This document shows positions 944-32,242 of a DNA stretch of 40,983 bases, piece after piece. Positions within the stretch are counted from its first letter, which is position 1, and the number at the start of each line of letters is the position of its first letter. The position numbers and the translations under genes are program-made. The stretch is from an uncultured Eubacteriales bacterium. GTDB lineage: Bacteria; Bacillota; Clostridia; Monoglobales; Monoglobaceae. Under the pieces are notes generated by a model that worked only from the letters and a program-made list of their open reading frames with translations, was not told the origin of the DNA and ran no database searches. Where the stretch lies: the NCBI GenBank assembly GCA_948468535.1, contig CAOKIL010000006.1, positions 1 through 40,983 on the forward strand, in the 5' to 3' direction.

Positions 944-959
944 CAGCGGCTGATAATAT

Positions 960-2066: not shown

Positions 2067-2078
2067 AGGAGAATTATT

Positions 2079-2363: not shown

Positions 2364-2376
2364 CATATTACCGTGA

Positions 2377-4374
<1,998 letters not shown>

Positions 4375-4389
4375 TTTTGGGAGAAAGCT

Positions 4390-5007
4390 ATGATAAAGAT
4401 GGAAAACACAAAGGTAATGAATCTTGAAGGCGCAATGCGCGGCGCAAGGAATCCGCTTAATAGCTGGGAAAGAAGCGACAGCTATTATGATGAAAACGGA
4501 GATTACGTTTTAGGCAATAACGATTTGGATCTTGCAAAGCGTTTATGTAAAGCCGGCAGTGACCACCGCAAGTTCATCAGGCAAATTTTGGTGAGTGTTG
4601 ATATCACTGCGCCGATGTATTGGTGGAAGGAATTTGACACATATAAGGTCGGCACGGTTGCGAATTCGACAAGCACAATGCACAAGATACATTCAAAGCC
4701 GTTTGAGGTATCTGACTTTTCGCATGACCATATGAGCAAGTCGGCGCTTGAAGCTCTCACGGCGTATATTGAGTTTATGGAGGTTAAGCGCGAGCATTAT
4801 ATTGAGACAAAGGATAAGGCGGACTGGTATGATATAATCCAGCTTCTGCCGTCCAGCTATAACCAAAAGCGCACGCTTACGATGAACTATGAGAATTTGA
4901 TTAATATGTACTATGCACGCAGGAATCATAAGCTTAGCGAATGGCATGAATATTGCTGCTGGGTGCTGAGCCTGCCATACACTAAGGATTTGTTTATTAA
5001 TGTATAA
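4390..5007 (+). CDS. Remote ThyX-like protein of unknown function
   Basis: A soluble protein of 205 residues, or 202 from the second ATG at 4399. I do not recognise it with certainty. Two stretches resemble flavin-dependent thymidylate synthase (ThyX) in spacing. Residues 77-100 (YWWKEFDTYKVGTVANSTS) align in register with the ThyX 'W-RHR-x-SVNE-S' region. Residues about 151-190 (a LPSSY motif, then YENLINMYYARRNHKLSEW) resemble the later LxNLxxFxxxR-AQxEIR helix. The catalytic RHR triplet is not present; TYK stands in its place. Thymidylate synthase activity is therefore doubtful, and a fold relative with another role is more likely. It starts 15 bases after gyrB and its stop overlaps the next gene by 8 bases, so the pair is probably translationally coupled. 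Confidence 0.5.
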   Translation: MIKMENTKVMNLEGAMRGARNPLNSWERSDSYYDENGDYVLGNNDLDLAKRLCKAGSDHRKFIRQILVSVDITAPMYWWKEFDTYKVGTVANSTSTMHKIHSKPFEVSDFSHDHMSKSALEALTAYIEFMEVKREHYIETKDKADWYDIIQLLPSSYNQKRTLTMNYENLINMYYARRNHKLSEWHEYCCWVLSLPYTKDLFINV

Positions 5008-7072
5008 AATAAAAATCAACAGTATCAAAATATGCGGCAGGATTTCGACAAAGTTCGGCTGTACAATGACTCATACTTTTGAGTTCACTGCCGAAAACTC
5101 AAACGAATTTGAGTTCGAATTTTCACTGCCTGATGGTACGGTTATAACGAATTTTGGAATCAAGTCGGACAATGAGTATTATAAGGCGCGTATGATTGAT
5201 ATAGCGTCAGACTTATGCGGCGGTTTTAAGATATCACAAAGCAGCGACGGAAGGTGCAGAGTTAAATATTCAGGCGTTTCGGACGGTGTTGATACTGCTG
5301 TCAGCTATATTTTAGAAGTCTCGTCAGTTGTCATGATGTCTTTGGGTGCGGAGTTTGCGGAAGTTGTGCTTCCGCTTGTTACAGAAGGCGATAAAAAAGT
5401 GCGCGGCAAGCATGAGAGAAAAAATACATCGTGTGTTGACAGCAGTGTTTCTGTTGATTTTGTCATAGACAGCGAGTTTGTCAGCCGTATTAGTTCGCCG
5501 ACCCATTATGCAGAAGTTAGGAACTGTGACGATGGTTTGCATATACATGCTGACGCTGTTACACGCGGCGACTTTGTTTTGCGGTTGGATTATAATAGTT
5601 TAAAACATCCGGGCTGTTTTGATAATACGGCATATTTGACAGGCGGCAGCGGCAGGGACTGGACAGGCGTGTACTTGTTTTCTGTGCCCGGAAGCGAATA
5701 TGCTGCAAAAGATGTGCTGTACATACTCGACTCGGACGGACTTAAAAACAGATCGGGGTTGATTGCCGCAGAATGTCTTTATGAGCTTGTCGAAAAATAT
5801 GTTGAAAATTTCGGTTGTATGATTGCCATGATTGACGGTCAGACTTTCTGTGACGAATTGCTTAATAAATCGGAGATTGATTTAAGAGAACTCAGAAAGT
5901 GGATTAATAATATTGAAGCTTTTGCTGCAAACAGTGCCAATATGAATATAAAACATGTAATTGACGAATTTAATTGTCGCAGCAGAAGTCCGGTGCGTGA
6001 AGCCGTGCTTGTGACGTGTTCGGGGCGTGCTTTTGATTGCTGTGATGCGGAGGCTGACGGCTTGCACATTAATGTTTTGTCGGTCTCTGAGAATTGCTTT
6101 GAGCGGGAACTGCAAAAACTTGCGGATGACAGCGGCGGATTTTATGCTCGGATGAGCAGAAACTGTGACTATACAGGATTTGTCGATGGCTTTGCCAAAA
6201 GACTTAGTTCCGGATTTCTTAATAATTTGAAAATTTTGGAATACGCGCTGGGAACGTACTTCAACCTGCCGAATAAAATAAGAAGTTATCGTTTTGGTGA
6301 TATAATCGCCTATACTTTCCGTTCAGCGACTGATTATCCCGAACAGTTGTTTCTTGAAGCTGACGGCGGTTTTTCAGACATAGTAAGGTTTGACAAGATA
6401 AATATCCTGCCTGACAGTGAGGAAAGCAATGCGGTTTTCGCTCAAAAAGTGTTTTCAGAGCTATACGGTTATATAGCGCGGGGAGATATTGCTCCGGAGT
6501 CGGTTGCGGAGTTTAAGGCTCAGGCAGTTAATCTCTCTCGTGAGCTCAATGTACTGTGTCCCGAAACGGCGTATTATTCAGAGCTGTCTGATGACGTGGT
6601 TAATATTAAGGTCAGATCAAGTTCTTCGGATATTATAATCAGACTGGGTTCAAAGCCGGTTTCAGGTTACGCGGCAGTGTTCGGAGACGATACGGTTCTT
6701 GTTCCGGAACTGAGAAAAGAGGTAGTATACTTTTGTGTTCATGCCCTGCTTGTCTGTATGCGTGCGGATTTCAGATTTACTTCACCGTATCAGTCGCAGA
6801 ACGCGGACATGGAGACAATGTATGCTGCGGCTGCCATATACCGTGCGGCGGACTGCGGATATTTGCCCGAAAGTGCAGCGTACAGAACGATTGCGGATAA
6901 AGCAGTTGAGGCGGCAGGCGGAAAAAAGCGGTTTGATAGTACTATTATAGCTTTCGGCGGCAGAGAAGATTTGGCGCTGAGTGATGTGAGGACGATTTTG
7001 GACAGAAACGATGTTATAGAAATATCAAGATTTGTTTTGCGACTGTGCCGTGACGGCAATAGGTTTTGCTAA
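5000..7072 (+). CDS. VIT-like plus von Willebrand A-like domain protein with degenerate MIDAS
   Basis: A 690-residue protein without signal peptide or obvious membrane segment, so probably cytoplasmic. Residues about 1-130 look like a VIT domain (FEFEFSLPDGTVITNFGIK, then a beta-rich stretch ending in VVLPLV). Residues about 235-400 have the alternating hydrophobic strands and helices of a von Willebrand A domain (DVLYILDSDGL from 238, IAMIDG, EAVLVTCSG, LADDSGGFYARM). The metal-binding DxSxS motif is degraded: D244-S-D-G-L. The last 250 residues are unassigned. VIT-vWA proteins usually take part in protein-protein assemblies, in some families depending on a metal-bridged ligand; here the metal site appears lost. 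The ATG overlaps the end of the ThyX-like gene, so they are likely expressed together. Substrate and partner are unknown. Confidence 0.55.
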   Translation: MYKIKINSIKICGRISTKFGCTMTHTFEFTAENSNEFEFEFSLPDGTVITNFGIKSDNEYYKARMIDIASDLCGGFKISQSSDGRCRVKYSGVSDGVDTAVSYILEVSSVVMMSLGAEFAEVVLPLVTEGDKKVRGKHERKNTSCVDSSVSVDFVIDSEFVSRISSPTHYAEVRNCDDGLHIHADAVTRGDFVLRLDYNSLKHPGCFDNTAYLTGGSGRDWTGVYLFSVPGSEYAAKDVLYILDSDGLKNRSGLIAAECLYELVEKYVENFGCMIAMIDGQTFCDELLNKSEIDLRELRKWINNIEAFAANSANMNIKHVIDEFNCRSRSPVREAVLVTCSGRAFDCCDAEADGLHINVLSVSENCFERELQKLADDSGGFYARMSRNCDYTGFVDGFAKRLSSGFLNNLKILEYALGTYFNLPNKIRSYRFGDIIAYTFRSATDYPEQLFLEADGGFSDIVRFDKINILPDSEESNAVFAQKVFSELYGYIARGDIAPESVAEFKAQAVNLSRELNVLCPETAYYSELSDDVVNIKVRSSSSDIIIRLGSKPVSGYAAVFGDDTVLVPELRKEVVYFCVHALLVCMRADFRFTSPYQSQNADMETMYAAAAIYRAADCGYLPESAAYRTIADKAVEAAGGKKRFDSTIIAFGGREDLALSDVRTILDRNDVIEISRFVLRLCRDGNRFC

Positions 7073-16598: not shown

Positions 16599-19500
16599 AT
16601 GTGCCAAAAGAAAATTTTTTGCTTAATACTTGCATGTTTAATGCTTATAGGTATGTTTGATTTTGGAATTGTATTCGCAGAAGATCAAACAGATTATATG
16701 GCAGATAGCAGTGATGGGCATTTAATACAAGAGGTAGTGTCTGAACAAATAAATGAAGGCAATCAAACAAATGAATTGGTAGAGGGAACGGAAACAAATG
16801 TTCCGGGGGAGCAGAATTCTTCTATTGATGATAGTTCAATGAATAATGAGGATATCAGCATTGCTGAAGGGACGCGGCCTGTTGAGATTACAGTCATAGA
16901 CAATTACGGACAGGCGATTAGCGGAGCGGAGCTGTGTATAGGTGCAAGTTATGCTATGTCAGATGATAACGGTGTTGCATATTTTGATGAAGTGGAAATT
17001 GGTAAATATTTGATTAAAGCTGTTGCTTACGGTTATAACAATAAGGCAACTGCGATTGTTGTTCCTGAAAGTTCAAATGATGTATATAACTTTTATGTGG
17101 TGCTGCAGCCGAATGAAAGTGAAATTGAAACATATATGAGCGTTCACCCCGATGATGTTGAACTAAGTGAAAAAGCACAGTATTATCTTGACTTGTTTAA
17201 TAATACAGAAAGCGGATTTTCAACAACCATGTCGCCAAGCATATCAGAAAGTTGTGAAGCAGGAACGGTTATTACGGAATGTATGGGCTCAATTTATTAT
17301 TTTGCAGAAAACGGAACATATAAGTATAATCCTGGCAGTTCTGTATGGGATGAAACGGTTTATGAAGCAATGCCCGATTGGCGAACATATGCAGGGGCAG
17401 TTGGCGTTGGCTCAAAGATATATGTGATGGGTGGAATACAAAATGATGTGTATTCTGACCTTGTAGATATATTTGATACGGCAACCGGAACGTGGTCAGA
17501 CGGCAGGAATATGCCCACAGTAGGAGCATACTTCAATGCTCATTACATAAACGGACGCATATTTGTCGGCGGTGGAACAACGCAGGGAGACCCGCGGGAT
17601 CAATATCCGTCATCAGGCGGAGTTGCAGACTCAGGCTATGTATTCGCTGAGTATAATCTTGATATGAACAGTTGGATAAATAGAATTAACAGCGGTACTC
17701 CAAATTTGTGTGGAGCGACATCAGCGGCATGCGGAAATAAAATTTATTTTACAGGATTCTTGTCGCCGCATAGCGAGCATACAAATCTCGTTAGAACATA
17801 TAATGTGCAATCGTATGATTGGGAGTATACTCAAGGACGCCCGTTTGCCGATTCCGATGGCAGAGGAATATTTGGCGGTATATTTGTTAATTTAAATGAT
17901 TGTCTTTACTACCAAGGCGGTTCATCATATGCGGATGATGAAAACTATGATACAGCTTTGGAAGATAATCCGTATTTATTCATTCCGGGTACAGATGAAT
18001 GGATATATATAAATCAAAGTGATATCTATGAAGATTTTAAAATGCGTATAGGTTCCTATCAGCCGGTTGCTGTTCATGAAAATACAATATACAGTGCGGA
18101 GAGTTCCTATGACGATAATGGTGATGAAAACGCATACTTAATTGGATTTGATATATTCAAGAGCAGTATATTGAAGTATGCCGAAAACACTGTTGCGGTA
18201 GGTCAGAACCACGTTGTGTATATAGATGACGGCATAGTAAAAGTCCGCGGTGACAATACATATGGTCAGCTTGGTACAGGTGATAATACTTCGCGCAATG
18301 AATTTGTAAGCATCACCAGACCATGGGGAGACAAGAAAATTGTTAAGGTCGCCGCGCGTGGCTACACAACGTATGCAATGAGTGAAGATAATATTTTATA
18401 CGCCTGGGGTGACAACAGTAGGGGTCAGATAGGTGACCGTACAACTGTCAGCAAAAACATTCCGGTTGAGGTTATGCAAAATGTCACGGATATTTCGGCA
18501 GGCATGGAGCATGCTATGGCAATATCAGGCGGTTTGGCATACGTTTGGGGAAGTAACGAATATCGACAGGTTGACGATGAGTCATCGCTGCCGATAAAGT
18601 CAACGCCATATTATTTAGAGAAGTCAGATGTAATCTCTGCAGGAGATTATCATACGCTTTCCAACATGTCTGCAAGCAAAGGTTTTTATGCTTTCGGTAA
18701 AAATGACAGAGGTCAGCTTGGAATAAGTACAGCAAGGAACTTTATTATGGATTCAAGTATTACGCCTGTAAATATGTTGGCGGGCGGCACAAATCATTCC
18801 GCAATAATGCTTGGTAATTTGTTATATGTATTTGGCGATAATACTTACGGTCAGCTTGGTCAAACACTGCCTGATAATGCAACATATGCTGATTATATGA
18901 TAAACACAGGCAGAACGGCAGAAAAGGTGTTTGCAGGCGCAAACCGTACTGAGTATATCTCAGGAGGCAATGTATACCGCGCAGGACAAGGGTATGCCAA
19001 AAACTATACAGCATTTGAGAAGATAGAAAATACAGACAGTATCTCTGAACTGAGCATAGGCGATGATTATACGCTTGGCGTAGACGGATACGGAGATATA
19101 TGGCGCTGGGGCGTGATGACGGACGACAGTAATTTTGACAGTCAAAAGAGCAGCTTCAGCACGCCGATAAAATCATGCTATGAGGATGGTTTTGTTGATA
19201 TAGATTCGCGCCGTACACAGACGATAGGTATAACCGATTCAAATAAGTTGGTTGCGTGGGGAAAAGGTTATTACGGTGACGGAACGGATAAAGAAACAAT
19301 ACATTATTATCCCAAAGAAATAGAACTGAACTATGGAGCTGTGCCAAAGTCTGTAGTTCGCGGAAAGAATTTAAATCTTGTTATAGACCAAAACGGTGAT
19401 GTTTGGGGATTTGGCAGCAACACAAATAATCCTATGGGTAATTTGGGAGGCAAAGTGAAAACGCCCACTTGTCTTAGCGGAATAGATGACGTCAAGTCAG

Positions 19501-22500
19501 CGGCGGCAGGAGATGGATTCAGTATATTCCTCAAAAATGACGGAACACTTTGGGGAATGGGACTGAACAGCTCAGGTCAGCTGGGGCAGGGCAATACAAT
19601 TGATACAACAACCCCTGTGCAAATAACGGATAAGGATGACTTTTTGGAGGTAGATGCCGGAGACGGATTTGTTGTCGCAATAGCAGAGGACGGAATATAT
19701 ACGTTTGGAGCAAACGAGAACGGACAATTGGGAATAGGAAGTACGGAAAATGCGCTTAGCCCGCAGAAGCTTAATGTAGAGTTTGATATACTGTATGAAA
19801 AGTTTATAGATGTAAGCGCAAGCACAAACTACTGTCTTGCTCTCACAAACAAGGGAAACGTGTATGCGTGGGGCAGAAACGGTTCGGGTCAGCTGGGAAT
19901 AGGAAACAAGACCAACCAAACCACACCGCAGAAAGTGAGTGCGCTAAGCGATATAGTGTATATCAATGCCGAGAACGTGCAGAGCTTTGCGATAAAGAAG
20001 GATGGAACAGTTTATGGCTGGGGACACGGTTCAAATTATCAGCTTGCAAGTGAAAATACAGGCACATGCCAGTCACCGAGACAGATAACAAGCCTTAAAG
20101 ATAAGGACATAAAGAAGATAGTGTGCGGAGACGGCTACGGAATAGCAGTAAGCCGAAACGGAAATATGTATACGTTTGGCTCAAATGTAAACGGCGCATT
20201 GGCGATATATACAGAAGAAGCACAGGAGTATATATCAGACAAGCTTGACGCGCTGCATTGGTTGAGGAATTACATGGATGGTATAGGCAATAACATAACA
20301 GAAAATATAACATTGCCGACATCAGCGCCAAACGGAGCAGCGATAAAGTGGACAAGCAGCCGCCCGGGGTATATAAGTGAAACAGGAGAAGTAAACAGAC
20401 CGACAGCGTATGAAGAAGACTCCGAAGTAAAGTTGACAGCGGAAATTGTATGTGAAAACGACAGTATTTTCAAGAACTTTGAACTGACAGTTCTTAAAGA
20501 TGAAAATAATGCAGTAATTCCGGAAATCCCGGAAAGAGTAAGGCAGAACCGTTATGATACAGATTCAAATAATAAAAACGAAAACTATTATTTTGATGAA
20601 GATGATGGAGAAGATACCGGAGGTGACATAGAAGCTGCAGGAGGTGTTGACTTATCATACTCGCCGGTGGAAAAAGCAAGATATAATAATATACCCTCAG
20701 GGCAAAGAAAAATACCAGTTTATTTAGATAAAAGAAAAAAGATAACAGGTATTATAGCAAATGATAGCGGAAGTAATTGGGGAGTAAATGTAATATCAGA
20801 CAGAGTGTTTGAAGGCTGGTGTGTATCGTCGGAGATTATAGAACCGGCAGGAGCAGAGGATCCGTTTTATAACAAAAATGTATGGGTGACAAATAAGGTG
20901 TGCAGCGGAAATCAAGATATATTGCTATATACAACAGACGGAAAGCAAGGGACCTTTGGACTATCATATTTTGCGACGGAACCTGATGCTTATGAACCGA
21001 ACCAGTATGAGATGGAAGCAGGAATGTTCTGGCAGTTTGACAATGAAAGCACGCCGACAGAGTATAACAGTGATAAAGTAAAAAAATTTAAAGCCAACCT
21101 TGGTTCACGTGATAAATTAGCGACAAAAATAGAAAACTTAAGTTTTGACAGCTATGCAGATGTAGATGTATATGCAGTAGATGTAAATGTCGGGGATAAG
21201 ATAACAGTATGTATGGAAATGGAATGTGCCCAGGAAGAAGCGAGTAAATATGTAATAGGTATAGCTGACAATATGAGTGATCAAGAGAATTATGAAGACG
21301 AATATCAAAAATCAATTTCATATCTAACAGATTTCTACTATTGCAAGAGTTTTAGCTATACAAATTTGGATAACACGAAACAGACACTGTTTGCGACATG
21401 GGTAGCGAATAAAACAGAAAGATGTTATATACATCTGGGACGTCGAGGAATAGACGGAAGTAAAGGAGAGCCGGTAAAGTATAATTTAACAACAACAAAG
21501 ACGGCAAATGTTAAGTCAGACCCAAGAGAAGTAAAGAATAACAGCTGGTATACAAATGATTTTATATGGATAAATAACAAAGAGATAGCAGAGGATATAA
21601 CAGTAAGCGGCGGCGGTAACGGAATGCTGGATAACCAGCTTGACGTAGACTGGTTTAAGTATGTTGCACCGGAGACAGGCAAGAAGAAAATAACCCTTAA
21701 CGGAGCCGGCTGTTTTGCGGTGGTACGCGGAGATAAAATGAGTAATGGAGGCAAAAGCCGTGAATACGATATGGTAAAGGGACAAACATATTATATCGGC
21801 GTATATTGCCCTGACGGAATGTATGACGGAATAATTAAAAATAACAATCCCGATTATACATTCAGTGTTGAGAATAGCGAATCAAGTGATAGTAAGCAAA
21901 CAGCATATATGGTTTTGTATGATTCAGGATATGTTTATGAAAGCCTGGAACATGTTGATAGATATTTCAATGAGAATGGTGAAAAGTTCGTATACACGGT
22001 CGATTTCTTTAAGAACTATCTTCAGCTTATAAAGGACGCTAATGTGGAATTTGTTATCTCTGTTCGAGAATTAGACTTTGACTGTAACCCTAACACATCG
22101 GCTGATGCGCTTGTTGATCCCATTGCATATTACTATATGAGCATCATTGAAGGTGACAATAGATTAGCTGTGTTGGCTGATAAGACAGCGCGGCAAATTA
22201 TGTTTATTATGGATAGAATGTATCAGGCATATGAAGAACTTGACGTATACAACAGACCAAAAACTATGCCTAAAATATATATAGGCTCACCGCATTTTTA
22301 TGGTAATGAAATACAAAATTACGAAGCCGATGCGTTTGCTGAACTTTATAAAAATATATTTGATGATATATATTATAAAATAACAACAGACGGTGGTGTA
22401 ATCGATCCCGAAAATAGCAGTAGATGTCTCAGAACAATAAATGAATATGATATAGCAGGTATATATTACGGAAGAGAAGATCCGAGATTTGCAGCAACGG

Positions 22501-23258
22501 AAGGACAAATTGAACCTGACCAAAACAGCGTATGGTATAAAACAATAGTCAAAATGTCAGATTATGCTGATAGCAAAGGTAAAAAGCTAATGTGGGTGCC
22601 TTATACAAGTGGTTTGAGAGATAATTTGAGAAAAATTGGGTATGTTGTTAATGCCGGCGTCAACAGCTATGGTAATTCTCTTTGTGACATTGTAGTATTA
22701 CAGCCTAATTATTACTATTATGAAATTGTGCATGACGTACCGGGAAATGATGCTCCATTTGTTGAAACATTTTATGATATTTATATGAGCACAGCAAATC
22801 ATGCTATATATGTTGATAATGAATTAATTGGTGGGAATATACCGAACAATACTTTGGTTACGTTTCAGATAGAATATGATAATTCTTTAATCACAGGCAG
22901 ATATCATAAAGGACAGGCAACTCCAAAACAAAAGGCATATAAGTTTAAAAGTACATATGAATATTTTAAGCCTCTTATTGACTCAGGAATTTCATTTTCT
23001 ATATATGCCGGAGGACCAAATGAACAAGCGTTTGATACATTTACGTTAAACAACCGTCACAGCAATCGTAATTATAATACGTTGTTATATCCAAGTAATG
23101 GACATAATATGCTATATAAGGATTTTTATAATGTGTTGCAAAATATACCTGCTGAAATTAACTATTTTAATGGGTACTTAATACATGATATAACATATAT
23201 GCTTTTGTATGGTGAAGATCCCGATAATATATTGGGGCAACTAAGCTATCCGGATTAA
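16599..23258 (+). CDS. Giant secreted Kelch-RCC1 double-propeller protein with DUF4855-like C terminus
   Basis: A 2219-residue exported protein; AGAGGTGAT precedes the ATG and a signal peptide covers about residues 1-27. Domains in order: a carboxypeptidase-regulatory-like fold (about 93-170; EITVIDNYGQAISGAEL), Kelch repeats (about 230-525; KIYVMGG and similar), a run of about twelve RCC1 repeats (about 530-1206; DNTYGQLGTGDNTSRN and GQLGIGN variants), an atrophied bacterial Ig-like domain (about 1208-1300), two prepeptidase-C-terminal-like beta domains (about 1460-1758; DAYEPNQYE, DWFKYVAPETG) and a C-terminal domain (about 1766-2219) with KLMWVPYTSG and CDIVVLQPNYYYY, like DUF4855, a putative glycosidase-type fold. 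Two beta propellers suggest ligand or glycan binding at the surface. Residues about 729-1758 are encoded in the 3.09-kb repeat shared with the gene at 26422. The function is inferred from domains only. Confidence 0.8.
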   Translation: MCQKKIFCLILACLMLIGMFDFGIVFAEDQTDYMADSSDGHLIQEVVSEQINEGNQTNELVEGTETNVPGEQNSSIDDSSMNNEDISIAEGTRPVEITVIDNYGQAISGAELCIGASYAMSDDNGVAYFDEVEIGKYLIKAVAYGYNNKATAIVVPESSNDVYNFYVVLQPNESEIETYMSVHPDDVELSEKAQYYLDLFNNTESGFSTTMSPSISESCEAGTVITECMGSIYYFAENGTYKYNPGSSVWDETVYEAMPDWRTYAGAVGVGSKIYVMGGIQNDVYSDLVDIFDTATGTWSDGRNMPTVGAYFNAHYINGRIFVGGGTTQGDPRDQYPSSGGVADSGYVFAEYNLDMNSWINRINSGTPNLCGATSAACGNKIYFTGFLSPHSEHTNLVRTYNVQSYDWEYTQGRPFADSDGRGIFGGIFVNLNDCLYYQGGSSYADDENYDTALEDNPYLFIPGTDEWIYINQSDIYEDFKMRIGSYQPVAVHENTIYSAESSYDDNGDENAYLIGFDIFKSSILKYAENTVAVGQNHVVYIDDGIVKVRGDNTYGQLGTGDNTSRNEFVSITRPWGDKKIVKVAARGYTTYAMSEDNILYAWGDNSRGQIGDRTTVSKNIPVEVMQNVTDISAGMEHAMAISGGLAYVWGSNEYRQVDDESSLPIKSTPYYLEKSDVISAGDYHTLSNMSASKGFYAFGKNDRGQLGISTARNFIMDSSITPVNMLAGGTNHSAIMLGNLLYVFGDNTYGQLGQTLPDNATYADYMINTGRTAEKVFAGANRTEYISGGNVYRAGQGYAKNYTAFEKIENTDSISELSIGDDYTLGVDGYGDIWRWGVMTDDSNFDSQKSSFSTPIKSCYEDGFVDIDSRRTQTIGITDSNKLVAWGKGYYGDGTDKETIHYYPKEIELNYGAVPKSVVRGKNLNLVIDQNGDVWGFGSNTNNPMGNLGGKVKTPTCLSGIDDVKSAAAGDGFSIFLKNDGTLWGMGLNSSGQLGQGNTIDTTTPVQITDKDDFLEVDAGDGFVVAIAEDGIYTFGANENGQLGIGSTENALSPQKLNVEFDILYEKFIDVSASTNYCLALTNKGNVYAWGRNGSGQLGIGNKTNQTTPQKVSALSDIVYINAENVQSFAIKKDGTVYGWGHGSNYQLASENTGTCQSPRQITSLKDKDIKKIVCGDGYGIAVSRNGNMYTFGSNVNGALAIYTEEAQEYISDKLDALHWLRNYMDGIGNNITENITLPTSAPNGAAIKWTSSRPGYISETGEVNRPTAYEEDSEVKLTAEIVCENDSIFKNFELTVLKDENNAVIPEIPERVRQNRYDTDSNNKNENYYFDEDDGEDTGGDIEAAGGVDLSYSPVEKARYNNIPSGQRKIPVYLDKRKKITGIIANDSGSNWGVNVISDRVFEGWCVSSEIIEPAGAEDPFYNKNVWVTNKVCSGNQDILLYTTDGKQGTFGLSYFATEPDAYEPNQYEMEAGMFWQFDNESTPTEYNSDKVKKFKANLGSRDKLATKIENLSFDSYADVDVYAVDVNVGDKITVCMEMECAQEEASKYVIGIADNMSDQENYEDEYQKSISYLTDFYYCKSFSYTNLDNTKQTLFATWVANKTERCYIHLGRRGIDGSKGEPVKYNLTTTKTANVKSDPREVKNNSWYTNDFIWINNKEIAEDITVSGGGNGMLDNQLDVDWFKYVAPETGKKKITLNGAGCFAVVRGDKMSNGGKSREYDMVKGQTYYIGVYCPDGMYDGIIKNNNPDYTFSVENSESSDSKQTAYMVLYDSGYVYESLEHVDRYFNENGEKFVYTVDFFKNYLQLIKDANVEFVISVRELDFDCNPNTSADALVDPIAYYYMSIIEGDNRLAVLADKTARQIMFIMDRMYQAYEELDVYNRPKTMPKIYIGSPHFYGNEIQNYEADAFAELYKNIFDDIYYKITTDGGVIDPENSSRCLRTINEYDIAGIYYGREDPRFAATEGQIEPDQNSVWYKTIVKMSDYADSKGKKLMWVPYTSGLRDNLRKIGYVVNAGVNSYGNSLCDIVVLQPNYYYYEIVHDVPGNDAPFVETFYDIYMSTANHAIYVDNELIGGNIPNNTLVTFQIEYDNSLITGRYHKGQATPKQKAYKFKSTYEYFKPLIDSGISFSIYAGGPNEQAFDTFTLNNRHSNRNYNTLLYPSNGHNMLYKDFYNVLQNIPAEINYFNGYLIHDITYMLLYGEDPDNILGQLSYPD
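18784..21870 (+). repeat. Direct repeat copy A, about 3.09 kb, inside the Kelch-RCC1 gene
   Basis: This matches 26399-29485 at a constant offset of 7615 bases with no insertion or deletion. The one substitution I noticed is C at 21851 against T at 29466. Identity starts abruptly within an RCC1 repeat (the preceding bases differ) and ends at GTGTTG; a weakly matching tail extends to 21894/29509. The edges do not fall on domain borders, which points to recombination or gene conversion rather than domain shuffling. I did not align every base. Confidence 0.93.
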
Positions 23259-23283
23259 AAAATAAGATAAGGAGAAATGAATC

Positions 23284-24741
23284 ATGAAAAAGATAATAAC
23301 AATATTATTAATACTTGTAGTGCAGTTAAGCGCAGTGTGTATTACAGCATGTGCTAACGAGGCTGCTGATTTAATACAGCCGGATGTATACATACAATTA
23401 GGCAGATATAACGATGAGCCGATAGTATGGAAGTGTGTAGACATTGAGGATGAAAACGGAAAGCTGATACTAAGCGATAAAATATTATGTTATAAGGCAT
23501 TTGATACAGTGTATAGCACAACAAATTATCCCAGAGAATATACTTCGGGAACATGGGAGAATTCACTGTTAAGATACTGGCTCAATTCCACGGAAAATGC
23601 AGGTGAAGTAAATTGGCCGCATCCTAACCCACCGAGTGAAGAAAATGTGCGCAGAGAGCCGTATGCAGATGAAGCTGGTTTTTTAAATGCGAATAATTTT
23701 ACTGAAAGTGAGAAGTCATTAATGAAAACGGCTTCATATTGGCAGATAATGGATTCATCAGAAAAGAAGAAACCGGAAAATGGAATATACTGTTGGTTTG
23801 GGTATAATATTGAGACTAACGGGATGGGATTTCCCCCTTATTGGAAACATGTTTCTTATCGGTATGTTTCGGAGTTTTCCCATGTTGAAGGTGCGATGTA
23901 TCGACTTAAGGACACAGCGTTTCTACTTGATCAAAAACAACTATATAATGTTAATGATAGATATGGTTCAGTTAAGGCAGAACCAACAGAAAAGGTAAGA
24001 CGGTCAATTATTGAAAAGTATGAAGGCACATATAATTATGGATTAGATTCATATTGGTTAAGATTCGGACGCAGTTATGTTGCGGATTTTGTAATGGGAG
24101 ATGGTTCTCAGCCCAGTGATGTGTCATACGTTAGATTAACAGGCGTAAGACCTGCGTTTTACTTAAATGATAATAACGTGAATATTATATCAGGAAGCGG
24201 AACAGAAGCAGACCCATATATAGTTGACGGAACTGAACAGAATAATGCGGTTGTATTCTGCAACGGAAGTGAAGTGATTTTTGACCAGCAGCCGATAGAA
24301 GAAAACGACAGATTGCTTGTGCCTGTAAGAGCGATATTTGAATCATTGGGAGCAGAAGTCACATATGATGATGGAGACGGAGTTATAACGGCAAACAATG
24401 GCGAGCGCACAGTGGTAATGCAGATAGATAATCACGAAATGGGCAACGGAACAGAAGTATTCACGCTTGATGTTGCGCCGAAATTAGTAGGAGACAGAAC
24501 AATGGTGCCGCTAAGAGCTGTATCAGAAGCATTTGATTGCAAAGTAGAATATATAGAAAATCTTAATAGGGTGGTAATAGACAAGCCCAAACTTCCAATG
24601 GACTTTGGTGAAGGAATCGGAAAAGAAAACTGGCAGGATCCTGAATATGTAAAACATATGAAAGAGAAGTTTGACATAGATTTAGATCCGACCAACCCGG
24701 AACTTTTGGATTATGGTTTTTATGTATCTTCATTCCATTAA
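23284..24741 (+). CDS. Secreted DUF6273-like plus CuAO-N protein
   Basis: A 485-residue exported protein. A signal peptide (KKIITILLILVVQLSAVC) precedes a domain of about 270 residues that resembles DUF6273: EPIVWKCVDIEDENGKLIL, SGTWENSLLRYWLN, FLNANNFTESEKSLM and a late SYWLRFGRSYV with VRLTGVRPAFYL. This fold is a distant relative of formylglycine-generating-enzyme-like domains and is common in secreted Clostridia proteins. Residues about 321-435 are a CuAO-N domain (RLLVPVRAIFESLGAEV, RTMVPLRAVSEAFDCKV). A short unassigned tail follows. It starts 25 bases after the Kelch-RCC1 gene with an AAGGAG upstream and is probably in the same operon. Substrate or ligand is unknown. Confidence 0.75.
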   Translation: MKKIITILLILVVQLSAVCITACANEAADLIQPDVYIQLGRYNDEPIVWKCVDIEDENGKLILSDKILCYKAFDTVYSTTNYPREYTSGTWENSLLRYWLNSTENAGEVNWPHPNPPSEENVRREPYADEAGFLNANNFTESEKSLMKTASYWQIMDSSEKKKPENGIYCWFGYNIETNGMGFPPYWKHVSYRYVSEFSHVEGAMYRLKDTAFLLDQKQLYNVNDRYGSVKAEPTEKVRRSIIEKYEGTYNYGLDSYWLRFGRSYVADFVMGDGSQPSDVSYVRLTGVRPAFYLNDNNVNIISGSGTEADPYIVDGTEQNNAVVFCNGSEVIFDQQPIEENDRLLVPVRAIFESLGAEVTYDDGDGVITANNGERTVVMQIDNHEMGNGTEVFTLDVAPKLVGDRTMVPLRAVSEAFDCKVEYIENLNRVVIDKPKLPMDFGEGIGKENWQDPEYVKHMKEKFDIDLDPTNPELLDYGFYVSSFH

Positions 24742-24751
24742 TTTTGTTTTA

Positions 24752-24777
24752 TCCGGTTACCCGGATGGGTAACCGGA
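24752..24777 (+). other. Perfect intergenic hairpin without U tract
   Basis: TCCGGTTACCC (24752-24762) pairs with GGGTAACCGGA (24767-24777) around a 4-base loop. The following bases are CAAGCGG, so it is not a standard terminator in either direction. It sits between two co-oriented genes and could stabilise or process the operon mRNA. Confidence 0.6.
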
Positions 24778-24803
24778 CAAGCGGTTATTAAGGAGAAATG
24801 AAT

Positions 24804-25328
24804 ATGAAAAAGAAAATATGTATTGTATTATGTTTGTGTTTGATGTGTGCTAACTTAGTTTCCGCATATCCAAATGAATCAATTTATCAGGTAAAGGAGC
24901 GTATAATTAAATCAAATGTGCGTCAAATTGATTCATTAATAGGAAGAGCGAAAAGCAATGGAGTTGTAGATGCATATACCGCATTGACTTTAAAATCTGA
25001 GTATGTGGCAAGTTTGGACTTGGAGAACACAGCATATACATTGCAAAGCGGTGAAACAGTTAAAGAAAAAATTAATAGGGTAAAATCAGCAGCATCAAAC
25101 GAGGATAAAACATCGAAAGTTTTTGTTAAATTAGAAGAAGGAATAGAATATAGTACATTAGAAAAAGCATTAAGTAATTTTGAATATGAATATGAATATC
25201 AAATGGAATTAACGGGATTACATGTATTAAAATTCCTTGATGTTACTGATGCAGATAGGGCTATCGACGTATTAAACAGCAAAGATTATGTTAACTATGC
25301 AGAACCTGATTATATTTTTAGAGATTAA
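24804..25328 (+). CDS. Secreted stand-alone subtilase-propeptide (I9)-like protein
   Basis: A 174-residue exported protein. The ATG at 24804 is preferred over one at 24798 because AGGAG at 24791-24795 is 8 bases from the former and only 2 from the latter. A signal peptide (about residues 1-21) precedes a charged helical stretch. From about residue 105 the sequence reads like the N-terminal propeptide of S8 serine proteases: KVFVKLEEGIEYSTLEKAL, then LHVLKFLDVTDADRAIDVL and NYAEPDYIF. In subtilases that last motif directly precedes the protease domain, but here a stop codon follows at once. It could be a free protease inhibitor of I9 type, a folding helper, or the relic of a lost protease. No subtilase is in this window. 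Confidence 0.6.
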   Translation: MKKKICIVLCLCLMCANLVSAYPNESIYQVKERIIKSNVRQIDSLIGRAKSNGVVDAYTALTLKSEYVASLDLENTAYTLQSGETVKEKINRVKSAASNEDKTSKVFVKLEEGIEYSTLEKALSNFEYEYEYQMELTGLHVLKFLDVTDADRAIDVLNSKDYVNYAEPDYIFRD

Positions 25329-25363
25329 ATAAATTATATACATTTAGTAGGAGGAAATATATC

Positions 25364-26312
25364 GTGAAAAAAACACTATTTTCAATAATTTTAGTATTAT
25401 CGGTACTGGCTAATACAATATTCGGATTTGCAGAATCAGAATACACAGAAGAAACATTGCGCAACATTAAATTCACAGTCGGAAGTGACATATGCTATGT
25501 AAACGGAGAAGCACAAAAACTTGAGAAGGCTATATATCTTGATGAAGCAACAGGGAAAGCGATGCTGATGATAAAATCTTTTTGTGATATTTATGGCTGT
25601 GAGTTCAGAGAGAGCAGGTGGTATAATAACGCAGGTATAGAATATGATATTGCAAGTGTTAGATGCGATGAATCATATTTGGAATTGTATTTAACAGATA
25701 ATGTATCTGAGGAAAGAGTGGAAGCTGATGCTTCGGTGAAGGATTGGATTATGAGCTCAAGTAAATATTCTACCGAAATATATATACACGCAAAAACTTA
25801 ATGATTGCAGATTTGTGTCACTCAGGTTTCTCGCAGAGTTATTTGGTTTTGAAGTGATATGGGATGATTCAGAGCAGACCATTACATTAAACGAAAAAGC
25901 AGATGAGGAACTTTTTGAATATAGTATAGAAGTGAATTACAGGCAATATGACGGAACATTGACGATAAACAGAGAGCTGCTAAACCACACTCCGTATTAT
26001 CTCAGTCATTGGAGAGGTTCGAGACCTTTTGTATATATTTATGAAGATGTAAATGGTGAAAAAGGAAATTGCGTTTACCCAATCAAAGGTGTTTCCTACA
26101 CTACTGTGGTAGACGGAAAGATAATTTCTCCAAACTCTACTGAGAGGGAAACAACAAACTATACAAATTTAAACTTGCCAAAGGGTAAGTATATCTGTGA
26201 AATCAGCGGATATGAGAGGATTATGTATGCAGGACTCAGGCTTGCTGAAATTAGAGGTCCGGAATATAGATTTGAAGTGAGCCGGGACAAGGAATACGCC
26301 GAGTACAATTAA
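25364..26312 (+). pseudogene. Secreted CuAO-N protein gene, frameshifted
   Basis: Reading starts at a GTG at 25364, 9 bases after GGAGG, with a signal peptide (KKTLFSIILVLSVLANTIFG). The first frame stops at 25799-25801; a second frame is then open to 26312. The break lies at a run of five A (25792-25796). Removing one A gives H-A-K-L-N-D-C-R-F-V-S-L-R-F-L-A-E, which restores the CuAO-N motif SLRFLAELFGFEVIWDDSEQTITL. A homopolymer insertion or sequencing error is therefore likely. The N-terminal half carries the first CuAO-N strands (ICYVNGEAQKLEKAIYL). The last 130 residues are a beta-rich, Ig-like domain of unknown role. The restored protein would have about 315 residues. Confidence 0.7.
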
Positions 26313-26316
26313 ATGA

Positions 26317-26398
26317 AAAGTTGTAAGCACTGCGTCACAGATTAATGAAAGCTTTATCACAGAGGTTAAACTTAATAAAATCAAGGACGATGATTTAA
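26317..26398 (+). pseudogene. Short coding remnant fused to the truncated Kelch-RCC1 copy
   Basis: 27 codons, open in the frame of copy B from 26317, after a TGA at 26314. They encode VVSTASQINESFITEVK and then LNKIKDDDL, which has no counterpart in copy A. It lacks a start and ribosome-binding site. It looks like the end of another exoprotein domain joined to the RCC1 block at the GCGGC junction (26399). Confidence 0.45.
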
Positions 26399-29300
26399 GC
26401 GGCACAAATCATTCCGCAATAATGCTTGGTAATTTGTTATATGTATTTGGCGATAATACTTACGGTCAGCTTGGTCAAACACTGCCTGATAATGCAACAT
26501 ATGCTGATTATATGATAAACACAGGCAGAACGGCAGAAAAGGTGTTTGCAGGCGCAAACCGTACTGAGTATATCTCAGGAGGCAATGTATACCGCGCAGG
26601 ACAAGGGTATGCCAAAAACTATACAGCATTTGAGAAGATAGAAAATACAGACAGTATCTCTGAACTGAGCATAGGCGATGATTATACGCTTGGCGTAGAC
26701 GGATACGGAGATATATGGCGCTGGGGCGTGATGACGGACGACAGTAATTTTGACAGTCAAAAGAGCAGCTTCAGCACGCCGATAAAATCATGCTATGAGG
26801 ATGGTTTTGTTGATATAGATTCGCGCCGTACACAGACGATAGGTATAACCGATTCAAATAAGTTGGTTGCGTGGGGAAAAGGTTATTACGGTGACGGAAC
26901 GGATAAAGAAACAATACATTATTATCCCAAAGAAATAGAACTGAACTATGGAGCTGTGCCAAAGTCTGTAGTTCGCGGAAAGAATTTAAATCTTGTTATA
27001 GACCAAAACGGTGATGTTTGGGGATTTGGCAGCAACACAAATAATCCTATGGGTAATTTGGGAGGCAAAGTGAAAACGCCCACTTGTCTTAGCGGAATAG
27101 ATGACGTCAAGTCAGCGGCGGCAGGAGATGGATTCAGTATATTCCTCAAAAATGACGGAACACTTTGGGGAATGGGACTGAACAGCTCAGGTCAGCTGGG
27201 GCAGGGCAATACAATTGATACAACAACCCCTGTGCAAATAACGGATAAGGATGACTTTTTGGAGGTAGATGCCGGAGACGGATTTGTTGTCGCAATAGCA
27301 GAGGACGGAATATATACGTTTGGAGCAAACGAGAACGGACAATTGGGAATAGGAAGTACGGAAAATGCGCTTAGCCCGCAGAAGCTTAATGTAGAGTTTG
27401 ATATACTGTATGAAAAGTTTATAGATGTAAGCGCAAGCACAAACTACTGTCTTGCTCTCACAAACAAGGGAAACGTGTATGCGTGGGGCAGAAACGGTTC
27501 GGGTCAGCTGGGAATAGGAAACAAGACCAACCAAACCACACCGCAGAAAGTGAGTGCGCTAAGCGATATAGTGTATATCAATGCCGAGAACGTGCAGAGC
27601 TTTGCGATAAAGAAGGATGGAACAGTTTATGGCTGGGGACACGGTTCAAATTATCAGCTTGCAAGTGAAAATACAGGCACATGCCAGTCACCGAGACAGA
27701 TAACAAGCCTTAAAGATAAGGACATAAAGAAGATAGTGTGCGGAGACGGCTACGGAATAGCAGTAAGCCGAAACGGAAATATGTATACGTTTGGCTCAAA
27801 TGTAAACGGCGCATTGGCGATATATACAGAAGAAGCACAGGAGTATATATCAGACAAGCTTGACGCGCTGCATTGGTTGAGGAATTACATGGATGGTATA
27901 GGCAATAACATAACAGAAAATATAACATTGCCGACATCAGCGCCAAACGGAGCAGCGATAAAGTGGACAAGCAGCCGCCCGGGGTATATAAGTGAAACAG
28001 GAGAAGTAAACAGACCGACAGCGTATGAAGAAGACTCCGAAGTAAAGTTGACAGCGGAAATTGTATGTGAAAACGACAGTATTTTCAAGAACTTTGAACT
28101 GACAGTTCTTAAAGATGAAAATAATGCAGTAATTCCGGAAATCCCGGAAAGAGTAAGGCAGAACCGTTATGATACAGATTCAAATAATAAAAACGAAAAC
28201 TATTATTTTGATGAAGATGATGGAGAAGATACCGGAGGTGACATAGAAGCTGCAGGAGGTGTTGACTTATCATACTCGCCGGTGGAAAAAGCAAGATATA
28301 ATAATATACCCTCAGGGCAAAGAAAAATACCAGTTTATTTAGATAAAAGAAAAAAGATAACAGGTATTATAGCAAATGATAGCGGAAGTAATTGGGGAGT
28401 AAATGTAATATCAGACAGAGTGTTTGAAGGCTGGTGTGTATCGTCGGAGATTATAGAACCGGCAGGAGCAGAGGATCCGTTTTATAACAAAAATGTATGG
28501 GTGACAAATAAGGTGTGCAGCGGAAATCAAGATATATTGCTATATACAACAGACGGAAAGCAAGGGACCTTTGGACTATCATATTTTGCGACGGAACCTG
28601 ATGCTTATGAACCGAACCAGTATGAGATGGAAGCAGGAATGTTCTGGCAGTTTGACAATGAAAGCACGCCGACAGAGTATAACAGTGATAAAGTAAAAAA
28701 ATTTAAAGCCAACCTTGGTTCACGTGATAAATTAGCGACAAAAATAGAAAACTTAAGTTTTGACAGCTATGCAGATGTAGATGTATATGCAGTAGATGTA
28801 AATGTCGGGGATAAGATAACAGTATGTATGGAAATGGAATGTGCCCAGGAAGAAGCGAGTAAATATGTAATAGGTATAGCTGACAATATGAGTGATCAAG
28901 AGAATTATGAAGACGAATATCAAAAATCAATTTCATATCTAACAGATTTCTACTATTGCAAGAGTTTTAGCTATACAAATTTGGATAACACGAAACAGAC
29001 ACTGTTTGCGACATGGGTAGCGAATAAAACAGAAAGATGTTATATACATCTGGGACGTCGAGGAATAGACGGAAGTAAAGGAGAGCCGGTAAAGTATAAT
29101 TTAACAACAACAAAGACGGCAAATGTTAAGTCAGACCCAAGAGAAGTAAAGAATAACAGCTGGTATACAAATGATTTTATATGGATAAATAACAAAGAGA
29201 TAGCAGAGGATATAACAGTAAGCGGCGGCGGTAACGGAATGCTGGATAACCAGCTTGACGTAGACTGGTTTAAGTATGTTGCACCGGAGACAGGCAAGAA

Positions 29301-29485
29301 GAAAATAACCCTTAACGGAGCCGGCTGTTTTGCGGTGGTACGCGGAGATAAAATGAGTAATGGAGGCAAAAGCCGTGAATACGATATGGTAAAGGGACAA
29401 ACATATTATATCGGCGTATATTGCCCTGACGGAATGTATGACGGAATAATTAAAAATAACAATCCTGATTATACATTCAGTGTTG
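26399..29485 (+). repeat. Direct repeat copy B, about 3.09 kb
   Basis: Second copy of 18784-21870, offset 7615 bases, same orientation. It begins within an RCC1 repeat directly after unrelated sequence. The coding frame is preserved through the whole block, and both copies join to different downstream coding sequence. Confidence 0.93.
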
Positions 29486-30849
29486 TCAATGGCGGATCAA
29501 GTGATAGTAACGTATTAGATTTTACACCTAAGTCCGGAGGTAAGTTTATATACTCAAGTAATCCGGAGAAGATAGAAGAAGCCCATCTTGCTGAAAGCGG
29601 AAATATGCTTGATAATTATGAAAATTTGTCTCCGGGTAAATATACATATATGGCATGGTATCATAATGGAACGTCATCGCCGATACATACCGATGTACTA
29701 TTTAACTCAAACAATGCACAAATCAGGATAAACAAATTAGGCTTGCAAGTTTTCCCATGCATAGATGCTCCACAGTGGACAGGAATACAGGCATATTCTG
29801 ATTTTATAGGGAAGACCATTGACAATTCTTTAGAAATACACCCTTGTAATCCATCTGTTTGTTATCCGGCGGCATTAGATTTGCCAAAGACATATGATAT
29901 AAACTCAAATGTTCAATCAAGATGGTTGAGTGATATTTATTATAATGCTTATGGGAAACATTATCCCAATATGGCAAATTACAATGAACCAATATATATA
30001 ATAATGGAATTTGAAGTATTAAGCGGATCAACGAGCCTAAGTACAATTGCATACAAGACAACATCGGACAAAACTAAGTTTATACTGTATGATGCTCCGT
30101 ATGTTCAGGATGTTACTGTGGCGACATATACCAGCGGTTCTCCGACATGGAAGGGTATTACGGGCTTTAAACCAATTGTTGAAACAAATTTGTCACATAC
30201 AATAGAATCTTCTGTTAATACAGACGGATATTCGATACCTATGGTTGTTAAAAATGCCTTTGGAACAGTGACCACAGGCAAGTGGGTAACTAATCTGAAT
30301 CCACAGAATGATGCAAGCGCCTATAAGTATATAGCGGAATCAAGTATGTTGGATTTTGATTACAGTGACGAGCATGATTGGAAGTTTGATACAAAACATA
30401 CCTCAATGAAAAACATACCGGAAGGTTATGCGGGAAGCAACTTTATACCTAATGACACTCTTCCATATCTGACATTACCTCCCGGAGATATTATACCCGA
30501 CGGAGAATATGTAGGATTTAAGAAGCAACAGATATCCATAAGTCAGGGAAATTACAGTGTTGAAAACATATATAATATAACAGTGACAAATAATACAAAT
30601 TCAGCGTGGAAGTTTAATTATAGGACTGATTCAAAGTCCGGTGTGGTAGTCGGCATAAGCGCTGATGGTGATGAAATGCAGTACAGTTGTTCCGGCTCCT
30701 TTGGAGATAATGATAAATATGCTCGGTTCGTAGGGCGTACTGTAAACGTTCCGTCAAAAGCAACAGTCAATATAACAGTAAGCGTTGTATTAACGACCGG
30801 AGATGCCGGATGGGTAAACAATGAATTCTATGTAAGTAAAGAGTATTAG
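26422..30849 (+). CDS. 5'-truncated Kelch-RCC1 paralogue with an alternative C terminus
   Basis: From the first ATG this frame gives 1475 residues; it is open from 26317. It has no signal peptide, no Kelch propeller and no Shine-Dalgarno before the ATG, which lies inside an RCC1 repeat, so it is probably not expressed as it stands. Most of the RCC1 run, the Ig-like domain and the two prepeptidase-like domains match the gene at 16599. After 29485 the sequence diverges: about 450 different residues replace the DUF4855-like part. They start NGGSSDSNVLDFTPKSGGKF and show beta-rich stretches such as GKYTYMAWYHNGTSSP, IIMEFEVLSGSTS and, at the end, YSVENIYNITVTNNTNSAWK. I do not recognise this C terminus. 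It may be a silent donor cassette or an ordinary truncated pseudogene. Confidence 0.7.
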   Translation: MLGNLLYVFGDNTYGQLGQTLPDNATYADYMINTGRTAEKVFAGANRTEYISGGNVYRAGQGYAKNYTAFEKIENTDSISELSIGDDYTLGVDGYGDIWRWGVMTDDSNFDSQKSSFSTPIKSCYEDGFVDIDSRRTQTIGITDSNKLVAWGKGYYGDGTDKETIHYYPKEIELNYGAVPKSVVRGKNLNLVIDQNGDVWGFGSNTNNPMGNLGGKVKTPTCLSGIDDVKSAAAGDGFSIFLKNDGTLWGMGLNSSGQLGQGNTIDTTTPVQITDKDDFLEVDAGDGFVVAIAEDGIYTFGANENGQLGIGSTENALSPQKLNVEFDILYEKFIDVSASTNYCLALTNKGNVYAWGRNGSGQLGIGNKTNQTTPQKVSALSDIVYINAENVQSFAIKKDGTVYGWGHGSNYQLASENTGTCQSPRQITSLKDKDIKKIVCGDGYGIAVSRNGNMYTFGSNVNGALAIYTEEAQEYISDKLDALHWLRNYMDGIGNNITENITLPTSAPNGAAIKWTSSRPGYISETGEVNRPTAYEEDSEVKLTAEIVCENDSIFKNFELTVLKDENNAVIPEIPERVRQNRYDTDSNNKNENYYFDEDDGEDTGGDIEAAGGVDLSYSPVEKARYNNIPSGQRKIPVYLDKRKKITGIIANDSGSNWGVNVISDRVFEGWCVSSEIIEPAGAEDPFYNKNVWVTNKVCSGNQDILLYTTDGKQGTFGLSYFATEPDAYEPNQYEMEAGMFWQFDNESTPTEYNSDKVKKFKANLGSRDKLATKIENLSFDSYADVDVYAVDVNVGDKITVCMEMECAQEEASKYVIGIADNMSDQENYEDEYQKSISYLTDFYYCKSFSYTNLDNTKQTLFATWVANKTERCYIHLGRRGIDGSKGEPVKYNLTTTKTANVKSDPREVKNNSWYTNDFIWINNKEIAEDITVSGGGNGMLDNQLDVDWFKYVAPETGKKKITLNGAGCFAVVRGDKMSNGGKSREYDMVKGQTYYIGVYCPDGMYDGIIKNNNPDYTFSVVNGGSSDSNVLDFTPKSGGKFIYSSNPEKIEEAHLAESGNMLDNYENLSPGKYTYMAWYHNGTSSPIHTDVLFNSNNAQIRINKLGLQVFPCIDAPQWTGIQAYSDFIGKTIDNSLEIHPCNPSVCYPAALDLPKTYDINSNVQSRWLSDIYYNAYGKHYPNMANYNEPIYIIMEFEVLSGSTSLSTIAYKTTSDKTKFILYDAPYVQDVTVATYTSGSPTWKGITGFKPIVETNLSHTIESSVNTDGYSIPMVVKNAFGTVTTGKWVTNLNPQNDASAYKYIAESSMLDFDYSDEHDWKFDTKHTSMKNIPEGYAGSNFIPNDTLPYLTLPPGDIIPDGEYVGFKKQQISISQGNYSVENIYNITVTNNTNSAWKFNYRTDSKSGVVVGISADGDEMQYSCSGSFGDNDKYARFVGRTVNVPSKATVNITVSVVLTTGDAGWVNNEFYVSKEY

Positions 30850-30862
30850 GAGGTAGTCATTT

Positions 30863-32242
30863 ATGAAAAGGATAATAAGTATATTAACAATAATAAGTGT
30901 TGTATTAAGCAGCGGTTTAGCTTATGCCATCACTGTAGATGAAAGCATAATTAATGTGCTAAATGAGGGAGAAACATATATAAACGGTGAAATAAGAACA
31001 GATATAAGCGATATAATGGATGTTGGAAACGGATATTTGGTTTATAAGGAGGAAAACGGAGTTAAAGAGAGATGCTTCACTGAAGATTTTATAAATTTCA
31101 AACCTGTAGAAGTGTTTGACGCCCATGGTAATAGGGATTTCTATGTGCAAGCCGAATGGACAAGAGCAGGACACATGGATGAAATAAAATGGGCGAACGG
31201 AGTTTATATGGCACGTTCAAATGTGTATGATAACGAAATGTATCCGGGATGGGTATTGGAAAGTGAAGGTTATTTGTATATACTTGACAAAGATTTTCAG
31301 TATATTAAAAGAATAACATTTGCAAGTTATGTAAGAGAAATATCGTATATAGACGGTATATATTATGTAAGAATAACAAACAGAGGATATCTGAGAGCGA
31401 TGGTGTGGGGTTCAACATCTGAAGATGTGATAGAAGGAGTGTACTCATCAACTGATTTAGAAAATTGGAAGGAAGAACCTGATTTACAGCGCGTTCCTGT
31501 GACAAACGGGAAAACTGTATTAACTATGAGTAATGATAATGTTTATACTTTTAAAGACGGAAGGTTAGATAATCAAATTATTTATGAAGAGGTAAAAACA
31601 AATTATATCGCAGGGAATGATGTTTATTCGCAACAAATACTAAATACTACGGGAGAGTATTTTTATATTTATGATTCTTCAAGAAAATATGGAGATCCAA
31701 TGGCAATTTGGTTATCGAATGATGGCATTTACATGACAAAATATCAAGTTGATACGCTGAATTTAAAATCTATAAATGGTTCCCTATTAGATGGTTATGA
31801 AGAATCATATATGTCCAAAAATGATATAGATAGGTATCTACAAACAAGCGATATATACGTCCGTCTCAATGATAAAATCCTCGGCTTCGCACAGCCGCCG
31901 GTTATGGAAAATGACCGCACACTTGTGCCTATGAGATTTTTGTTTGAGCAAATGGGCGCAGATGTAAATTGGAATGACAGCACCCAAACCGCCACAGCAA
32001 CAATAAACAGCGCTCGGGGCGGAGGCGGCGAGCGCAACAGGGCGGGCGAGATACAAAATAGCGTCACATTCGCAATAGACAACACTACTGCCGCAGTCAA
32101 TGGCAAAGAAGCAACAATGGACGTACCTGCACGTTTAATAAACGACCAAACCTTCGTCCCCCTCCGCTTCCTTTCAGAAAACCTTGGCTATAACGTCGAG
32201 TGGGACGAATCCGCTAATACTGCAATAATCACAACAGATTAA
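30863..32242 (+). CDS. Secreted protein with beta-rich N-terminal part and C-terminal CuAO-N domain
   Basis: A 459-residue exported protein with AGGAGGT before the ATG and a signal peptide (KRIISILTIISVVLSSG, cleavage near AYA). Residues about 30-320 are beta-rich with repeated aromatic strands (GYLVYKEENGVKE, YIDGIYYVRITNRGYL, GVYSSTDLENWKEE) and may form a propeller-like fold. Residues about 328-459 are a CuAO-N domain (RTLVPMRFLFEQMGADVNW, QTFVPLRFLSENLGYNVEWDE) with a glycine-rich insert SARGGGGERNRAGE. The base composition changes sharply near 31850: I counted 16 G+C of 60 at 31561-31620 but 39 of 60 at 31981-32040. The CuAO-N module therefore seems to come from a different source. The gene starts 13 bases after copy B and is probably in the same operon. 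Confidence 0.75.
   Translation: MKRIISILTIISVVLSSGLAYAITVDESIINVLNEGETYINGEIRTDISDIMDVGNGYLVYKEENGVKERCFTEDFINFKPVEVFDAHGNRDFYVQAEWTRAGHMDEIKWANGVYMARSNVYDNEMYPGWVLESEGYLYILDKDFQYIKRITFASYVREISYIDGIYYVRITNRGYLRAMVWGSTSEDVIEGVYSSTDLENWKEEPDLQRVPVTNGKTVLTMSNDNVYTFKDGRLDNQIIYEEVKTNYIAGNDVYSQQILNTTGEYFYIYDSSRKYGDPMAIWLSNDGIYMTKYQVDTLNLKSINGSLLDGYEESYMSKNDIDRYLQTSDIYVRLNDKILGFAQPPVMENDRTLVPMRFLFEQMGADVNWNDSTQTATATINSARGGGGERNRAGEIQNSVTFAIDNTTAAVNGKEATMDVPARLINDQTFVPLRFLSENLGYNVEWDESANTAIITTD

Follow-up and report, generated by a model that had tools for sequence, protein, structure and literature searches.

Putative displacement of a C-terminal tip, as at Rhs loci, in a non-Rhs surface-protein gene of an uncultured Clostridia-type gut anaerobe

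The stretch of DNA analysed here (the window, 40,983 nt) is an entire contig, C6, of a metagenome-assembled genome (MAG) of 1.80 Mb in 129 contigs, 79% complete. It carries a gene for a large secreted protein and, downstream, a fragment of the same core attached to a different C-terminal end. On balance, the reading we lean towards is a displacement of the C-terminal tip as in Rhs loci, here in a surface protein that is not an Rhs protein, with switching between the two tails as a prediction. The locus is best explained as one conserved secreted core (kelch, RCC1, aBig, PPC) with interchangeable C-terminal tips. Its features are the following.

16599..23258, + strand: main gene, 2219 aa, an open frame with Pfam matches and a AGAGGTGA ribosome-binding site before its ATG
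18784..21870, + strand: core segment R, copy 1, about aa 729-1757 of the main protein
21871..21895, + strand: diverged shared linker, NSESSDS (NGGSSDS in copy 2, at 29486-29510)
21896..23258, + strand: tip1, a C-terminal module of ~450 aa without a Pfam family
23284..24741, + strand: g3, a secreted DUF6273 + CuAO_N1 protein (Pfam), found after tip1 in 8/8 copies
24798..25328, + strand: g4, a signal peptide and a homologue of the last ~170 aa of a relative's core-subtilase protein
25365..26312, + strand: g5, a CuAO_N1 gene interrupted near 25790 by a frameshift
26317..26398, + strand: 82 bp in the frame of copy 2, without recognisable similarity to RCC1, abrupt left junction
26399..29485, + strand: core segment R, copy 2, from the base-by-base match
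29486..30849, + strand: linker and tip2, the latter a stand-alone secreted protein in five relatives
30863..32242, + strand: g7, a secreted CuAO_N1 protein, found after tip2 in all copies found

The order is thus the main gene with tip1, g3 and, downstream, an in-frame R-tip2 orphan that lacks a start, followed by g7. Elsewhere, the contig begins inside dnaN and continues with recF and gyrB, the usual origin neighbourhood (1-7072). Between 9503 and 16101 lies a gene for a 2036-aa pectinesterase/SLH protein that ends at 15613; coding runs on in another frame to about 16101, which points to a frameshift or a base error.

A base-by-base comparison within the window places R at 18784-21870 and 26399-29485, at a constant offset of 7615 and without indel. 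As printed in the assembly, the copies agree at 3086 of 3087 bases and differ at 21851/29466 alone (C/T, synonymous for Pro), with a longest exact run of 3067 bp. The coordinates, offset, absence of indels and single substitution near the right edge reported in the earlier note are thereby confirmed. A search of the bacterium's own genome found R at just these two places. Past its right edge homology reaches 21895, with four further mismatches; over 18784-21895 all five mismatches fall within the last 45 of 3112 bp (p ~5e-10 under random placement), and this rules out a simple duplication with uniform divergence. Chance is ruled out by the 3087-bp size, and a multi-copy mobile element by the presence of two copies in the genome and by the lack of tRNA and other known RNA genes there. 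The left edge of the match is abrupt, and RCC1 similarity in the 82 bp before copy 2 does not rise above that of shuffled peptides.

The main protein starts with a signal peptide, after which Pfam matches place CarboxypepD_reg-like and kelch parts, an RCC1 propeller and aBig_2; PPC-like domains and tip1 complete it, the PPC-like assignment coming from the earlier note and inspection and having no Pfam match. No RHS_repeat was found by Pfam in the main or the copy-2 protein (P0001, P0002), and searches for a toxin or immunity family gave no significant Pfam, NCBIfam, PADLOC or PDB-sequence match. A single-sequence fold model of tip1, with a pLDDT of 32, is too poor to be informative. Tip1 and tip2 are unrelated in sequence, and the core is higher in G+C (R, 41.1%) than the tips (tip1, 33.4%; tip2, 37.4%).

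Is the right edge of R placed at random? Sequence comparison indicates that it is not, and that the shared core yields to unrelated tips there. A 2338-aa protein of a relative (G017) is matched to the main protein at 41% over aa 78-1760, and this homology ends at aa 1760, where R ends at 1757; beyond the core, PPC-like sequence and a subtilase take the place of tip1, and the last 170 aa match g4. Because the relative's homology stops at this point, the right edge marks the boundary between core and exchangeable tail. The former statement that the repeat is not domain shuffling is therefore wrong at this edge.

Copy 2, as far as its sequence tells, is a core fragment that has no start of its own and runs in frame into tip2. 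The frame is open from 26317 to 30849 and is kept for 4.4 kb, and the right junction lies in the linker common to both tips and meets tip2 at its mature start. Copy 2 has neither a ribosome-binding site nor a signal peptide, and no start codon precedes the repeat; the first common start codon, an ATG at 26422, lies inside R and lacks both of these signals. Of the two surface-protein genes described earlier, two copies of the core do exist, but the second does not have the signals of a gene.

Both g3 and g7 encode a signal peptide and CuAO_N1, a domain found widely in the relatives' genomes. All six long g3 homologues of one relative (G008) stand in tip1 loci, and g3 homologues without tip1 occur in G002 and G017. 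In G018 (C26:2442-13863, part of it in L034) the g3 family forms a tandem array of nine copies directly behind a tip1-tailed protein, and the four copies compared are 90-96% alike in DNA. The g4 gene has its signal peptide directly on the region that follows the subtilase domain in the relative, a secreted remnant without the protease; by its sequence it looks like the leftover of another tail.

Those relatives that bear names are uncultured Monoglobus MAGs. Tip1 turned up in four genomes, all from one family. It sits behind RCC1/kelch and subtilase-kelch-PPC cores, and a more distantly related tip1-like module sits behind an RHS-repeat core. An RHS-repeat protein encoded at L059/L203 (G008:C1, ~836-838 kb) has a tip1-like module as its C-terminus, and two g3-like genes come after it. 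In five relatives tip2 is encoded on its own, as a secreted protein, and a g7 homologue always follows. The locus L032/L197 (L197 equals G009:C29, both 24,214 bp with the same matches) has the order core-tip1, g3, 5'-truncated tip2 and g7, with flanking genes that differ from those of the window. In G008, assembled as one contig, g3 and then an ATG-less orphan tip1 follow the main core-tip1 gene; the first 38 bp of the orphan exactly repeat part of that gene's core, and another g3 lies after it. RCC1-core paralogues in this genome share ~65-77% DNA identity. A multi-kb identical core fragment was found in no other relative examined. A main-gene pattern search of genome and viral contigs returned no relatives, and papers about surface proteins of Monoglobus or about the rabbit MAG set yielded nothing useful. 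As a separate observation, two congeneric species, G002 and G009, have in common 8.5 kb of 99.9% identity that include an RCC1 surface gene (L029 229-8719, L030 1-8491), in an order inverted relative to an adjacent shared 251 bp; this suggests a recent transfer, a DNA inversion or bin contamination.

How might the order in the window have come about? A 7615-bp circle carrying R-tip1-g3-g4-g5 would integrate through a single crossover within R into an older gene whose tail was tip2, displace tip2-g7 into a silent downstream place and leave R as a direct repeat. One such crossover between the circle and an older R-tip2-g7 gene would yield exactly the order of the window. The reverse event, recombination of one R copy with the other, would remove 7615 bp and put tip2 in frame behind the main N-terminus, with a predicted product of 2211 aa by arithmetic; for this reason the orphan R-tip2 may be a stored alternative tail. 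The displacement reading draws support from the recurrence of the order tip1-g3-tip2-g7 in L032/L197 and from the independent start-less orphan with a core stub in G008, as well as from the end of the G017 homology at the edge of R, the separate tip2 proteins of five relatives, the variety of cores in front of tip1, the missing start and export signals of copy 2 and the higher G+C of the core. Points against it are that the core is not an RHS core, that a toxin/immunity family was not found in the searches above, that the comparator locus L032/L197 has different flanks, and that an identical core fragment of several kb was seen in none of the other relatives examined.

The event may be older than the split between species, as judged from sequence order, since tip1-g3 lies upstream of tip2-g7 in two of them. 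If the displacement is that old, something else must account for the identity of R, whether gene conversion, a renewed acquisition of the core or an assembler consensus. More tentatively, and with some doubt, Monoglobus-type gut bacteria might practise Rhs-like tail switching, whereby RCC1/kelch, subtilase-kelch and RHS cores would share a pool of tips with their partners (tip1-g3, tip2-g7), and the 3-kb repeat would let the silent tip2 replace tip1 via a 7.6-kb deletion.

What can the identity of the copies tell? The assembly was checked on the first <=20 kb of each of 116 unmasked contigs, the window among them (211 contig ends and 1,293,187 bases in all; five very small masked contigs and C42-C49 were left out), counting exact matches of at least 30 bp at contig ends. 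Eleven overlaps measure exactly 55 bp, and every other length occurs at most three times, hence the contig was built by a k=55 short-read de Bruijn assembly; these overlaps also rule out a long-read assembly. The metaSPAdes default is k=55, and SPAdes-style NODE names are borne by related MAGs. Simple A-R-B-R-D loops may be resolved by SPAdes through loop traversal, and truly identical R copies may possibly have been resolved in this manner. In the 1.29 Mb examined, the longest exact repeats within a contig are 3067 bp (R) and then 108, 106 and 92 bp. A 16S rRNA gene, sought in the MAG as an assembly control, was not found. According to a review, metaSPAdes collapses most strain differences, more aggressively than SPAdes; bulges are projected into a consensus graph, and repeats are resolved with strain paths made before the collapse (PMC8021871). 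Two differing R copies could thus be told apart by the assembler and still be written out with a shared consensus. A bulge cannot close where differences lie next to a fork, and it is beside the right fork alone that differences between the copies survive. Since a metaSPAdes-type consensus or loop traversal could both give it, the identity of R does not date the event. The inference of a very recent duplication or ongoing gene conversion in the earlier note is accordingly not shown by a k=55 short-read contig, as metaSPAdes merges variants. Exact multi-kb repeats in metaSPAdes-type contigs should, more generally, not be taken as recent duplications, because consensus building can impose identity.

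Both copies may exist and differ by perhaps a few percent, the assembler having merged them and written one consensus twice. This is a serious possibility, if short of a probable one, and it is compatible with displacement as the origin of the arrangement. The 11 overlaps of exactly 55 bp, the status of R as the sole exact repeat above 108 bp, the making of consensus from bulges with repeats resolved along earlier-built paths, and the confinement of differences to the right fork, where no bulge closes, all speak for it. But truly identical copies in a simple loop are also resolvable by traversal, the divergence at the edge (5/45) is too dense for bulge closure throughout, so that uneven divergence would be required, and the assembler is itself deduced. 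A neutral, recent segmental copy of R beside a tip2 gene, debris without a role in tail exchange, seems unlikely to us. The broken g5 next to it, the missing start signals of copy 2 and the non-homologous left edge fit such debris; a right junction in the linker common to both tips, at the mature start of tip2 and with the frame kept for 4.4 kb, does not, nor does the independent orphan with a core stub in G008.

Could it be that the two copies never occur on one chromosome? Two arrangements with a single R in common, or a chromosome and an excised circle, might have been strung together, as the MAG derives from a community and a k-mer de Bruijn assembly cannot bridge 3 kb with short-read pairs (the next longest exact repeat resolved is 108 bp). 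Such a chimera is improbable: each of the four junctions would still require reads of its own, R is in frame at both places, no other contig among those taken ends at an R edge, and an excised circle has a direct repeat as its precondition. Still harder to credit is ongoing gene conversion that holds two working paralogues identical. The identity does stop inside diverged homology, as a conversion tract would, at the right edge only, and the gene order common to another species means that copy 2 may be old; but copy 2 as written is not a working gene, and the paralogous RCC1 cores of G008, at ~65-77% in DNA, are not homogenised, so that homogenisation is not general.

Returning to tip displacement, how close is the likeness to known systems? 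In Rhs loci the main gene is followed by core fragments of different lengths, which are near-identical to it and form large direct repeats; these orphans carry unrelated tips that are lower in G+C, mostly lack starts and are in some cases decaying (Jackson et al., 2009; PMC2935791). The window likewise holds one conserved core with non-homologous C-terminal tips, a full core gene and a downstream near-identical partial core with an unrelated tip (an identity that assembly may have inflated), an orphan without a translation start or export signal, of which G008 supplies a second case, and a core with G+C above that of its tips. It differs in that the core consists of kelch, RCC1, aBig and PPC domains with a Sec signal peptide rather than RHS (YD) repeats, the host is a Clostridia-type gut anaerobe, the tips have no known toxin family and the partner genes encode secreted proteins. 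Without RHS repeats and with no toxin/immunity family found, the locus is not filed as Rhs, although its layout is Rhs-like. If the displacement reading is true, C-terminal displacement is not peculiar to Rhs/CDI toxins and also diversifies large secreted proteins of gut Clostridia, and the locus offers a testable switch.

In Salmonella an orphan rhs-CT is reported to be activated by recombination that fuses it with the main gene (Koskiniemi et al., 2014; PMC3967940). That recombination and its phenotype were shown, whereas here they are predicted; in both, the orphan lacks translation initiation and export signals, and recombination with the main gene would express it. Set against polymorphic toxin systems (Zhang et al., 2012; PMC3482391), the locus shows no recognised toxin or immunity domain, and its g3 and g7 encode signal peptides and CuAO_N1. 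The likeness to these systems lies in the organization: one tip family stands behind several N-terminal cores, and the tip also occurs by itself or in an orphan cassette, with a conserved gene following it.
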